Positions 36,759 to 55,540 of a DNA stretch of 64,000 nucleotides are shown one piece after another. A model generated the notes under the pieces. The model saw only the letters and a list, made by a program, of their open reading frames with translations. It was not told the origin of the DNA and searched no databases. Position numbers and translations under genes: made by a program. Every line of letters begins with the position of its first letter. Positions within the stretch are counted from its first letter, which is position 1. The stretch is from Cryptococcus deneoformans JEC21 (taxonomy: Eukaryota; Basidiomycota; Tremellomycetes; Tremellales; Cryptococcaceae), in the NCBI RefSeq assembly GCF_000091045.1, contig NC_006679.1:164941-228940 (forward strand), in the 5' to 3' direction.

Positions 36759-37758
36759 TTTGTAGATGTGAATCGTAGGTGTTCGTACCAGAGGTTTGCA
36801 AGTTGAGTATAGTTGTTGGTGTTTCCGAGTTCAAGATATATATATATATATACATCAATCTCCTCGTCTTGTTCCGCTTTTTCTCGGCCGCTTTGGTGTG
36901 ATTATGTTTTGCTGAGATGCTTATCAGTTAGATATGCTCCAATGGAATTTGGCCTGTAGCTTATTTATGAAGAAGACTAAGGCATAGATGAAAATAGCTT
37001 CTTCTTTGATCTACGATAAGCAAACTCCCAGACGCCAAAGGTCAGCGTCAGTCGTATGTCAGTCCTGTACGAGGTAACAATCTGCCTCCCGTTTTGTCTA
37101 CCGAAGTTCCTGCATATCTACGATGTTAGCTTGGTCGAGTATCATCAGGCCGTGCTCTGTGTCCTGACGATCTCCATGCGCTCAGAAAGGTATCAATGAC
37201 GAGAAGCACTTCCAACAACCAATAATGATGTCGTAGTAAGTAGCCTGAGAGACCGGAATTAAACGTCCCAGAGCCCTGGGCCTTGCGTCTTGTGACTTGT
37301 GGTTGGTTGGTTTGAGATCTTCAGAGCTTCTTGCCTTCTTGCCTTCTCCGTTGAAAATGGAGCTGCCCTGAGGCCTTAGGTGATTGGCCCTCGGCGCAAG
37401 ACGTGGTCGGAAAAAGGCAATGTCTATAGCCGTGAACGAAGGTTCTGATAAAGACTAATAATAATTTATTCACATCGACTTTTGATTTGCTGTTGAAGCA
37501 AGTAGCCACCCTTTATCGCCGGCTTCAGGAGTGTGGCATTATCATTGGGAGAAGATTGACTCAAGGGAAAAGGATATGAATTATAAATAATTTTTAACAT
37601 AATCGTTGATTTTCCTCCAGTCGCCACACTATATATGCATAAAATATTTGATCATCATCAATTAATTCTGGGTGCCTGTATCGGCTTTTATGTGGATTCA
37701 AATCGATATGAAGAATTGCTTGTTATAACGCTGATAGTCACGGTGCCGTCTTTTTGCT
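36759..37758. other. Upstream region of permease gene
   Basis: 1.0 kb without a supported gene. An AT dinucleotide tract at about 36835-36852 sits about 80 bases upstream of the permease ATG and may serve as its TATA region. A 62-aa ORF at 37321-37509 has no recognisable features. Confidence 0.45.
36835..36852. repeat. AT microsatellite in permease promoter
   Basis: About nine AT units in a row, upstream of the minus-strand permease start codon. Likely an unstable simple repeat overlapping the core promoter. Confidence 0.7.
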
Positions 37759-51040: not shown

Positions 51041-52970
51041 TTAACAGATGAACAATATGTTGGTATCCATGGCTGGATGCAATGTCAGACTTTGAATATG
51101 TCGTACTTTTAGCATAAAGCAGTACTCACGGTGACTTGCCGACAACTGAGGCTTTTGATCATACTTGCCCTTCAATTCGTCTCTGATAGTATTCAATAAC
51201 TGCACATAGCTCTGCTGGGGGTACTTGGTTAAAGCAGCAATGAACGCATAAGACATTGCGCCTGTTGCTCTGCCCGCTTCTTGCGTATCGGCACTGGTTT
51301 GCGAATCCTTACATCCGGACCAACTGATAACATCCGCGGGAGAAGTCTTGGTCTGTCGTGCCTTTTCCATAGCACCAGAGTTTTGGTTCATGACCTTCTT
51401 GCCAATACCCATGATACCCTGGAGCATACCGCCAGTATCACCTCGAAGATAAGACATACCGGCGGAAAGGAGACCTTGACCGGCCTCGGCGAGAAGATTG
51501 GGTTCTTTAATGACACCTTCGGTGGAATAGATGTAAGGCAAGTCAAGGGCGGTCCCAGAGTGACAACTGAGAAATGTTCAGCAAGGAGAATTTAAACGAG
51601 ATGTTTGTAAGGCTCACGAGTCGTAGATGGCAGTCAGACGACAACCGGCGGGAAGAGGACGGACCATGATATTGTGCCTGCCCTTACAATCAGTGACTCT
51701 CTTCAGACTGTAGCTCAAAGTTATAATCAGACGCACACTGTCAGGTAAAGTAAGTAACATGCACACTTTTATTACATGGTTATCACTCACTGTCATCATC
51801 CACAATGTGGCCTGCAGTCTTGAAATCCAGAGGATAAATAACCTCGTCATACCCATCGTCCTCATCGCCATCCAAATCCGGAGTTTGGCCACCATGTCCA
51901 GAGCTGCATACTAGTCAACACTGACCTGAGCTTGAGTTTTGAGAGGTAACCTACTAATGGAAGAACAGGGAGTCGTTAGGCTGAGCACCCTGGACCAACC
52001 AATGCATGGCGGCGAGGATGTTGGCACGAGTTGGAATCTGGCGGGGGTTGCGGGCGTCGTCTGTGAGCATGACGATGTCTTCAGACTTGTACCCGTATCG
52101 CTCTGTTCTGATCAGCAGAGTTTTGTGTTGTTGTTTACGGCTGACATACCGATAAGGAACTTTTGAACGTTATGCGCGTCATTAATACACCCCGCAAGAG
52201 CCGAAGATGAGCCAACGTAGTTGATACCAATCTGCAAGATTGTTAGCCACACAGTCCAACATTATTGTAATGCAATACATACACAGAGAGCCTTCTTTTT
52301 ACCGGTACCTGCGGTATTGTCAGCGCGAATGCACCTATGGCCATAATACTGTCGACTCACATTGAGAGTACTGAAAGTAAGGCTGCGCAGATTGCCCGCC
52401 TTGACCTTGCAATTGCGGACCATAATGTTGCGCCTGGGATGGTGGTCGGACTGCATTTCTTTCAGCTACAGTATTCTACAGGATGACAAGTATGGGAAAT
52501 GAAGATAATACGTCTGACTACGTGGAAGATGACTCACTCGGCGCGCCGGCTCCATAAGGCGCAGAGGTTCGCTGAGGGGTTCCACTGGGAGGAGTGTAAC
52601 CTGCGCCAGTGTGATGGTAGCTCGCCTCCACAGGAGCACCAGTAGGAGGTACGTAGCCTCCATTGCTTGTTCTATAATTGCCCTGAGATTGTTGCTGCTG
52701 TTGATAGCCCCCTTGTTGGTAACCGTTTTGCTGAGGAGCCGGTCGCTGGTATTGCTGAGGCGGGGGAGGGTTGTTATAGTATGCTTGAGGAGGAGGAGGA
52801 GGACGATATCTTGGTACGATTAGTAATGAGACTGATCGACGGCCGAAAAAAACGTACCCCATATTGGGAGGGGGAGGAGGTCCCTGTTGCGCCCACTGAG
52901 GGGGAGGGGGTCTGTAGCCGTAGCCGCCTTGCTGGTGGTGTCCACCGCCTGGATATTGGTTCCAGGACAT
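51041..52970 (-). CDS. MCA1: Metacaspase (type I, C14B)
   Basis: Arg/Lys-specific cysteine protease linked in fungi to stress response, proteostasis and cell death. Minus-strand exons: 52858-52970, 52538-52809, 52361-52465, 52283-52308, 52150-52231, 51955-52102, 51791-51903, 51737 (one base), 51618-51677, 51130-51566 and 51041-51072. They give 462 aa, normal length. Residues 1-165 are a Pro/Gln/Tyr/Gly-rich prodomain ([15 protein letters not shown]). The catalytic domain begins KKKALCIGINY. The dyad is H252 (YSGHGG) and C308 (DSCHSGT). [15 protein letters not shown] segment fits the calcium-binding acidic loop. It ends [10 protein letters not shown], the family signature. The one-base exon is needed to rebuild the conserved DDDMHNIMV sequence; without it the total is not a multiple of three. 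Confidence 0.93.
51737..51737 (-). other. MCA1: Predicted single-nucleotide exon in metacaspase
   Basis: On the minus strand the sequence reads cctgacag-T-gtgcgt, placing one T between a canonical acceptor and donor. The upstream exon ends …GAT GAT GAC A (51791) and the downstream exon begins G CAC AAT ATC (51677). A+T+G makes the Met of the DDDMHNIM block conserved in fungal metacaspases. The flanking introns would be 53 and 59 nt, the normal size here. Confidence 0.65.
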
Positions 52971-53338: not shown

Positions 53339-53390
53339 GTAGATCCGTCAACCCCCCGCCAACATTTCGCTACTTTTCTGTGATCGCTAA
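52971..53390. other. Intergenic region, metacaspase promoter and MBF1 3' flank
   Basis: 420 bases. A TATAATA-like string (about 53114-53120) lies about 145 bases upstream of the metacaspase ATG. No gene seen. Confidence 0.45.
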
Positions 53391-53572
53391 TTACTTCTTT
53401 TTGGGATGGAGAGGTGTACCAATGAGATTCTTGGCTCCACGCAGCTTGACATTGAGCTTTCTCTCTAGCTTGCCCAAAAGAGCTTGGTCAGGCACAGCTC
53501 GCCCAGACTCAAGATCAGCAATCTGCCAGTAATCGTCAGCGCTTACAGCACAATCGATTCAGTAAAATGAGG

Positions 53573-53605
<33 letters not shown>

Positions 53606-53745
53606 GGCAAGCTCCTTCTGGGTCATACTCTTGCCCTCTGCGTTTTTGATCGCCATTCGCGCAGTAGCAACGGCCTTACCGACGCTAGGAATACGTCAGC
53701 ACGTTGTCATTGTTCCTCAAGGAAAAGAAAAAATCAAAGCTGTAG

Positions 53746-53806
<61 letters not shown>

Positions 53807-54033
53807 AATACGTTGATGATCGGCAGCTACGAATCAAAGGCTTAATATGGTCTCCAGCTAAAAACTACGTGCTGAATATACTCACGACCCTTTGACTGGC
53901 CAGCACCCTTAGACTCCGAGGAAATGACAAGACCGGCTCGTTGAGCAGCTACATCAGAAGCATTTCAGCTGCATGATCAAAGCGGTGATATCACCCCATA
54001 AACTACTCACCGTTCAAAGTAGATCCCTTGGCA

Positions 54034-54064
<31 letters not shown>

Positions 54065-54199
54065 CCGTAGGCTTATCCCAGTCAGACTTTATGATGGAAG
54101 AAGAAAGCGGCCGGTGTTGTTAAAAGGAAGTGGCGCGGGACCGTCAACCAGGGTCTTTCTCGAGAAAAGAAGCCTTATGAATGGGCGAATACTCACCAT
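53391..54199 (-). CDS. MBF1: Multiprotein-bridging factor 1
   Basis: Conserved coactivator that bridges TBP and bZIP-type activators and also acts at stalled or collided ribosomes. Minus-strand exons: 54197-54199 (ATG alone), 54011-54086, 53886-53948, 53754-53826, 53579-53684 and 53391-53522. They give 150 aa, the standard length. The N-terminal MBF1 domain reads [16 protein letters not shown], then [10 protein letters not shown]. The helix-turn-helix (HTH_3) covers about 90-140: [29 protein letters not shown]. It ends [11 protein letters not shown]. The start codon sits on its own coding exon; no other in-frame Met precedes SDWDKP. A bZIP factor lies 23 kb away, but no functional link is implied by position. 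Confidence 0.95.
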
Positions 54200-55540
54200 G
54201 ATGTATGAATATGCAAGTGGTAACGATTTAAGGTTGTTTTAAAAGATAGCTGACAAATAGAAATGTATAGAAATTGAAAGAGATGGAGAGAAGCAACGGC
54301 GACTCGGCTGTAAAAGGAAATGGAACCCAACCATGACGGACACCCACGCGATCACGACGGTCCCGGTTGTCCCGATCTTTCGTGCATACGTAATCGTTGC
54401 CTTATCTCCTTCCGCTCTATATATGTATCGTCCTTCGTCTTTCAGTAGTATACGAGTATGAATATCGGCGATGACGGCGCGCATAACGAAAGTGATGGCG
54501 GGCGTTTTTGTTTTAGGATCAAGACATTCCTCATTCACCACCGATCATCTCGTCCATCACTCATTTCTTGCTACCTCTGTCGACATCTCACCCATCTTTC
54601 TCCATCACAATTCATCGCTTGACATACGAACCAGTCATCTGCGTCACAGACATTGATGCGCCCCTCAACAGCTATCTCAATTCTGACGGATTGACGTGTT
54701 CAAGTGACTCCTGAGATATCTCGTGGCACCCCATATATCAACCGTAAGATCTACGCCATATCATGTACTGCGTTTCCCACATTTAGATGATTAAAGAATC
54801 TTCCCCCCGAATACTCTTGAATTCTGCACTTCCTGCTCTTTCACGATTGCAGAGTATCGATGGCTGATTCCAAGACTCATCTTACGGCCCATCCGTCCCC
54901 AGCAAAGACTTTTACTCCGAAAAAGTGCAGTTATCCACGTACCATTTATTTTCTGTCATTCTTTCCCGCCTCTAGGATGATTAGTGACTGGCGACCAATA
55001 ACCGAAATGGGCAACATAATGAGAATGGGAAAGGAGTGGCAAGTAGGAACATGTAAGTTACCCGAATCAACTCATGCATCACACATCGTTCTTCAACCAC
55101 CTATCCCTTCATGATCAGTAGCCATCGTGTTGTGGGTCACAGTGTGCGGTCTCATTGTAGCTTGAAACTAGTTAAAATTGCCGAACGAGCTTTGACCTCC
55201 TGGGGTATTTTTGATGAACCTTTTTTGGAAAGTTCTGCGCAACAGCGCTGGTACGCACCTCGCTCCCGGCCGATACTTGTTCATTATCTGATGGTGACTG
55301 CCTTATTTGATGAAGAAGCCGCGCCCTCAAGATAGTCTGACGCGATATCATCCAGCAGAGCTATCCTAAAGGACCCTTGCCGGTCTAGCGCGGAGAGAAG
55401 GTGGTTGATTCATCTTCTTGCCTCTTCTGGAAATGTCCAGCCACTTGCCCAGCTATATAATCCCCTTTCTCCTTCCTCCCCTTCGCCCCTCATCCTGCCT
55501 CTTCCTTCCCTCCTCTATATCGCCACCCGCTTGCCTTACA
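54200..55540. promoter_or_regulatory. Divergent intergenic region, MBF1 / RRM gene
   Basis: 1.3 kb between opposite starts. A CTATATATGTAT TATA-like string at about 54416-54427 would suit the minus-strand MBF1 gene. A GCTATATAATCCCC element (about 55449-55462) followed by a C/T-rich leader suits the RRM gene. Short ORFs here lack features. Confidence 0.45.

Follow-up and report, generated by a model that had tools for sequence, protein, structure and literature searches.

A probable single-nucleotide exon in the Cryptococcus deneoformans metacaspase gene MCA1, with the same arrangement in its paralogue MCA2

Few single-nucleotide exons have been documented, and these probe how the spliceosome handles exons too small for recognition. 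The closest cases are given here as the cited passages of each source describe them. The Arabidopsis gene APC11 has a single-nucleotide exon, shown by cDNA and reporter constructs (PMC4674806), and a preliminary description of the locus studied here rightly named this plant gene as a precedent. The Fusarium gene CYP621A has a one-nucleotide exon with RNA-read support, which its authors in 2026 claim as the first in a fungal gene (PMC12940212). Janbon et al. 2014 reported C. neoformans exons down to 1 bp (PMC3990503), and these predate the claim of priority among fungi made in 2026 (PMC12940212). An exon of one base pair is also described in the placozoan mitochondrial gene cox1 (PMC5436844). 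In stwintrons, two introns are removed sequentially from one intervening stretch, and the internal one interrupts a splice signal belonging to the external one.

The window, which is the whole 64,000-nt stretch of DNA that was analysed, is part of contig C10 of the C. deneoformans genome (19.05 Mb, 14 contigs) and contains the metacaspase gene MCA1 on the minus strand. Its identification as a metacaspase was upheld by Pfam, where Peptidase_C14 scored 143.7 bits against a cut-off of 21.4, and its HYSGHGG (at 243) and DSCHSG (at 301) motifs are presumably the catalytic His and Cys motifs. In a protein alignment the product is the same as the public record P0001 (Metacaspase-1, C. deneoformans B-3501A) everywhere except at one junction. 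The neighbouring gene upstream, at about 53390-54200 and also on the minus strand, has many short introns and resembles, we believe, a multiprotein bridging factor. The features of MCA1 are as follows; percentiles refer to the splice model described below.

51041..52970, minus strand: coding region of the metacaspase gene MCA1, 11 exons, CDS of 1374 nt, 457 aa (from translation, comparison with P0001 and Pfam)
51791..51903, minus strand: exon 7, from the end of the catalytic-His block to DDD; its final A is base 1 of the Met codon and it ends ...GATGATGACA
51738..51790, minus strand: intron 7 (gtgagt...cctgacag, 53 nt), with a probable branch-site A at 51751 (acttact), score percentile 57.8
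51737..51737, minus strand: proposed single-nucleotide exon T, base 2 of the Met codon (from sequence, frame, scores, shuffles and profile, and from MCA2 by analogy)
51678..51736, minus strand: intron 8 (gtgcgt...gggcag, 59 nt), with a probable branch-site A at 51690 (actgatt), score percentile 67.5
51618..51677, minus strand: exon 9, which begins GCACAATATC; its first G is base 3 of the Met codon and is followed by HNIMVRPLP
51697..51790, minus strand: competing single intron behind the public record P0001, 94 nt with the acceptor gagag, percentile 6.3
51678..51786, minus strand: rival single intron of 109 nt, +4 donor gtgata, product DDDSEHNIMV, percentile 3.4
52451..52465, minus strand: 15-nt segment separating the two in-frame acceptors that intron 2 offers, counted as exon at first and as intron in P0001
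Junction string predicted for the MCA1 mRNA with T included (proposed splicing): GACATGCAC, also GACATGCACAATATC
MCA1 junction strings of other in-frame joins (rival splicing): GACAGTGAGCACAAT, GACATCACTGATTG

The gap between exons 7 and 9 is 113 nt long, and the T at 51737 divides it into one intron of 53 nt and another of 59 nt. The preliminary description had placed this T, on the minus strand, between the acceptor cctgacag and the donor gtgcgt, and the letters read exactly so (cctgacag-T-gtgcgt), with an acceptor AG directly before the base and a donor GT directly after it. Translation agreed with its account of the frame: a direct join of 51791 to 51677 shifts the frame and loses DDDMHNIMV, and adding T as the middle base of an A-T-G Met codon restores this block and leaves the frame open up to the stop. 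The frame and the conserved protein need T; other in-frame joins exist and fit more poorly. Exon 7 starts at 51903, since a start at 51910 breaks the frame. Taken as a whole, what had been said of sequence, splice sites and frame stands; the claim that the arrangement is unique does not (see below), and neither, probably, does the CDS total of 1389 nt, which is a multiple of three but assumes the upstream acceptor of intron 2. With exon 3 from 52450, the acceptor implied by P0001, the CDS is 1374 nt, likewise a multiple of three, versus 1389 nt with exon 3 from 52465.

Like APC11, MCA1 has one base between AG and GT on which the frame depends (PMC4674806). APC11 is a plant gene in which an A lies inside a 422-nt intronic stretch, unlike MCA1, which has two short introns typical of the genus and a paralogue, MCA2, with the same base. 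The likeness to Fusarium CYP621A extends to a fungal gene, a central codon base within a conserved motif, a pair of short introns and public models that are mostly wrong; CYP621A is an ascomycete P450 with the base in a Gly codon, unlike MCA1 and MCA2, which are basidiomycete metacaspases in which the base is T. Unlike MCA1, cox1 is a mitochondrial gene (PMC5436844). The 1-bp exons of C. neoformans var. grubii are from the same genus as MCA1; the main-text passages that report them name no gene, and MCA1 or MCA2 could be among them (PMC3990503). The H99 loci are CNAG_04636 for MCA1 and CNAG_06787 for MCA2 (PMC3219705). The resemblance to stwintrons lies in two introns being removed in sequence from one stretch, and the difference in that the MCA1 introns are complete with one coding base between them. 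A stwintron at this site was considered and rejected: no G stands immediately before gtgagt at 51790, and the donors of both MCA1 introns are complete. A mitochondrial gene such as cox1 is spliced by a system other than that of MCA1.

Both introns are complete, with a donor, a branch site and an acceptor of their own, so either could be taken out by intron definition. We propose that introns 7 and 8 would be recognised singly in this way and removed one after the other, that either order would leave the remaining intron with complete splice sites, and that the ligation product GAC-A/T/G-CAC would restore Met282 and the caspase-fold frame. Judged from the sequence, the MCA1 mRNA would thus be spliced with T included and by sequential removal. 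The cited passages of PMC11913375 state that C. neoformans splices introns of 40-60 nt with greater efficiency than introns of 100-500 nt, a point in favour of a pair of short introns rather than a single long one. If T were skipped or either intron kept, the protein would be predicted to end before the catalytic Cys (residue 303): an intron 7 kept in the message reads GAC AGT GAG TGA, a stop, an intron 8 kept reads ATG TGC GTC TGA, also a stop, and in translation skipping T shifts the frame into a stop before the Cys motif. Inclusion of T might also be regulated, with skipping acting as an off switch through truncation before the catalytic Cys, a reading compatible with the single-nucleotide exon. 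It draws on the stop that skipping brings shortly past the junction and on the alternative splicing and intron retention described as common in C. neoformans (PMC3990503), and we consider such regulation rather unlikely.

Introns were scored with a splice model self-trained without annotation on 200 kb of contig C2 and on the window with MCA1 hidden. It replaced two earlier intron models, one made from only 29 introns and the other seemingly contaminated. The C2 segment (C2:200001-400000, L004-L023) has N at 37,500 of its 200,000 bases, and 206 putative introns were retained out of 344 clusters. This set is itself contaminated, with a median intron length of 67 nt versus the 55 nt published for coding introns (PMC3990503); its signals are, despite this, roughly GTRAGT, GCTGAY and YAG. 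By this model donor, branch site, acceptor and length look proper in both introns that flank T, whose total scores lie at the 57.8th (intron 7) and 67.5th (intron 8) percentile of putative local introns; the intron 8 acceptor by itself is weak (10.2nd percentile).

Alternative junctions were enumerated with donors from just inside the upstream exon to T and acceptors from T up to 30 nt past the start of the downstream exon. Introns had to be at least 35 nt long, with GT or GC donors for single introns and GT only for two introns; summed scores are not comparable between one- and two-intron solutions, and percentiles per intron were used. Within these bounds MCA1 has 11 single-intron solutions that are in frame and stop-free (8 GT-AG and 3 GC-AG), so that, contrary to the earlier claim, the single-nucleotide exon is not the sole GT-AG arrangement. 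None of the 8 GT-AG single introns ranks above the 6.3rd percentile of putative local introns, and one of them is the P0001 model. Two-intron solutions number 15 in MCA1, among which the T exon scores highest at 27.5 and a 5-nt exon follows at 23.4, and 6 in MCA2, where the T exon is again highest (32.4, the next being 28.4). For MCA2 the same bounds yield no in-frame GT-AG single intron, and its 5 in-frame single-intron solutions are all GC-AG at percentile 0.0.

Protein comparison bears on the spacing at the junction. The rows of the MCA1 search are the best 120 of 4650 matches, and in 103 of these 120 exactly one residue stands between the DDx triplet and the His. This residue is M in 84, L in 11 and I in 8, which agrees with the earlier statement that the Met position is conserved, as M, L or I occupies it in 103 of the 103 single-residue rows; all codons for M, L and I have T as the middle base. 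Extra residues occur in 15 of the best 120 rows, and the further 2 are P0074, which ends at the junction, and P0103, which is oddly aligned. The solved metacaspase-1 structure 4f6o_A, which we take to be the yeast enzyme, reads IIDDEMHDIMV at this site.

A family profile was built from 98 rows, with P0001-P0020, P0074 and P0103 left out, and the scoring covered 7 of the 8 MCA1 GT-AG single-intron products and 4 of the 5 MCA2 GC-AG ones. The T-exon product with M scored 701.9 bits, the 5-nt-exon product 692.6, the product with SE 691.6 and that with ITDCKGR 688.3, margins for M of 10.3 bits over SE and 13.6 over ITDCKGR, and all 7 scored single-intron products of MCA1 fit the family worse than the T-exon product. 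In MCA2 the margin is 7.3 bits for I over SN. Replacing M by K, T or R gives 697.1 to 698.0 bits, a loss of just 4 to 5 bits, so the profile supports mainly the spacing. These figures bear on the public record of MCA1, in which one 94-nt intron with the acceptor gagag leads to seven residues, ITDCKGR, in place of M. The join is GT-AG and in frame and has a strong donor in common with the T-exon model, yet it stands at the 6.3rd percentile with a profile score 13.6 bits worse, and its insert is found in no row other than P0001 among the best 120 of 4650; we regard it as extremely improbable.

A second metacaspase gene, MCA2, is present on contig C2 of the same genome. Its junction and the proposed transcript are as follows.

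Contig C2, MCA2 junction: GATGATGACA/gtaagc...tcacag/T/gtgagg...gattag/CCACGAG, with introns of 54 and 51 nt
Junction string for MCA2 of this genome with T included (proposed splicing): GATGACATCCACGAGCTC

A single T again lies between two short introns (GACA/54 nt/T/51 nt/CCACGAG) and gives the codon A-T-C and the block DDDIHELLV, at the same codon position as in MCA1; the flanking introns are at the 91.7th and 73.3rd percentile of the self-trained model. The two genes have other intron positions in common (before IGIN, in HY/SGHG and before the final P), so the introns that flank T may also have been inherited in both paralogues. The 8-mer TGACAGTG occurs on the minus strand of MCA1 both at 51788-51795, the border of exon 7 and intron 7, and at 51736-51743, at the one-letter exon, and ACAGT is present at both corresponding MCA2 sites; this repeat may have originated through copying of the donor region, or by chance.

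The MCA2 search also returned P0121, a protein of 537 aa with the source label lgn, which presumably denotes assembled sequencing runs, and a longest contig of 2410 nt. It is identical at 534 of 537 positions to MCA2 translated with 12 introns removed, it contains DDDIHELLV and thus includes T, and its C-terminal end reads into the last intron. With its uninterrupted frame P0121 fits an assembled MCA2 transcript with the last intron retained. It is difficult to picture a gene finder predicting an exon of one base and then overlooking an unremarkable final intron. The MCA2 genomic stretch, at 2254 nt, is shorter than the 2410-nt contig and would fit one read by an intron-aware predictor, so that the RNA nature of P0121 is something we infer and a genomic contig also fits. 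For MCA1, transcript fragments gave no match above 87% identity among the 120 listed of 1362, and a scan of viral contigs for fungal DNA gave 66 loci, the best at 68% over 28 residues and the others at 45% or less.

From the sequence, splice signals, frame, the MCA2 arrangement and the T in the transcript-like P0121 we conclude, with a probability of about 0.93, that MCA1 contains a one-nucleotide exon, T at 51737, with an ordinary short intron on either side. The strongest evidence, that of MCA2 and P0121, comes from outside the window, and together with the M/L/I residue class it bears out the one-nucleotide exon first proposed for this gene.

The part that chance might play was estimated from 20000 dinucleotide shuffles per gene gap, with the first 6 and last 3 bases fixed. 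The motif AGNGT, flanked by two introns of 35 nt or more and giving a codon for M, I or L, arose in 3962/20000 shuffles for MCA1 and 1014/20000 for MCA2, so the bare AGNGT pattern is weak evidence. When both introns also had to be at or above the 25th percentile, the counts were 650/20000 and 104/20000, and the observed summed score was equalled or exceeded in 53/20000 and 0/20000. A frameshift or assembly error at the MCA1 junction, with the T a chance match, could appeal to the 3962 MCA1 shuffles with the bare pattern, but MCA2 shares the arrangement, the score-matched shuffles are few and the MCA1 protein is otherwise identical to P0001, which leaves this explanation with next to no probability.

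The rows with extra residues have a narrow distribution. By name, the 15 rows of the MCA1 search (best 120 of 4650) are from Cryptococcus, Kwoniella, Papiliotrema, Kockovaella or Tremella; correctly spaced named Tremellales rows in that search are from C. wingfieldii, C. depauperatus, Dioszegia and Naematelia (four). The MCA2 search contributed 41 further rows, those new among the best 120 of 5235 matches, of which 11 have extra residues, all by name from Tremellales genera, and the spacing is correct in P0121, C. depauperatus and Naematelia. P0123-P0125, from MCA2 of C. neoformans, have two residues, FY, with the preceding block absent, and were hence excluded from the correct count; they read GEFSSRFY where P0121 has AICPVDYETAGLLIDDDI, an oddity that is probably misannotation around the same one-letter exon. 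A taxonomy look-up placed Papiliotrema and Kockovaella in the Tremellales and Cryptotrichosporon in the Trichosporonales; the remaining named genera are, we assume, also Tremellales.

Among the 26 listed rows of both searches that have extra residues, 23 begin the insert with S, R or C, as expected where the last exon base reads on into GT (AGT, CGT, TGT). Exactly one residue too many is found in 12 of the best 120 rows of the MCA1 search and 10 of the 41 further rows, and in 21 of these 22 a T exon would give M, L or I; the codon rule is loose (18 of the 22 need a GTGA/GTAA donor, three need GTAG, GTGC or GTGG, and P0131 misfits) and this outcome is nearly forced. The exon structures in other Tremellales are those implied by the protein models, in which the extra residues would be indirect traces of the T exon, and real use of a +4 donor is also possible.

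For MCA1 itself, use of the +4 donor would mean one 109-nt intron (gtga/gtgata to gggcag) with the product DDDSEHNIMV. This intron is GT-AG and in frame, and a join of its type is what the many public models with one surplus residue imply; its score, however, is at the 3.4th percentile, its profile score is 10.3 bits worse, and MCA2 lacks the +4 GT (gtaagc), with P0121 carrying T instead. We consider it very unlikely, and keep the single-nucleotide exon for MCA1.

A tree was built from 38 of the 161 rows, and in it the 12 MCA2 rows fall on one side of a branch with support 100/100; the MCA1 rows do not form a single resolved group, and the root serves display purposes only. The MCA2 side includes Cryptococcus, Kwoniella, Naematelia, Papiliotrema, Kockovaella and Tremella, and since the MCA1 rows of these genera lie opposite, the MCA1/MCA2 duplication looks older than the six genera. 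If the T exon was inherited in both copies, it predates the duplication. We lean towards this history, in which the exon would have arisen before Cryptococcus, Kwoniella, Papiliotrema, Kockovaella, Naematelia and Tremella split and been preserved by both copies in much of the Tremellales, explaining the 29 odd rows (15 + 14). Independent gain or gene conversion is another possible source of the T in both paralogues.

We found no report of a metacaspase with a single-nucleotide exon in the literature searched, mostly the main texts of open-access papers, and the H99 annotation could hold the MCA1 case. Single-nucleotide exons as such are already known; what is notable here is the sharing of one by two old paralogues. 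With two paralogues that have the same exon in one tractable yeast, sequential removal becomes directly testable. Public metacaspase sequences, including that of C. deneoformans MCA1, probably include spurious residues in the stretch from the His motif to the Cys motif. The scar that gene finders leave at such exons, where the first four donor bases are translated, seems recognisable and could be used for finding more. If the exon does predate the duplication, a very old single-nucleotide exon would have been retained in two gene lines.
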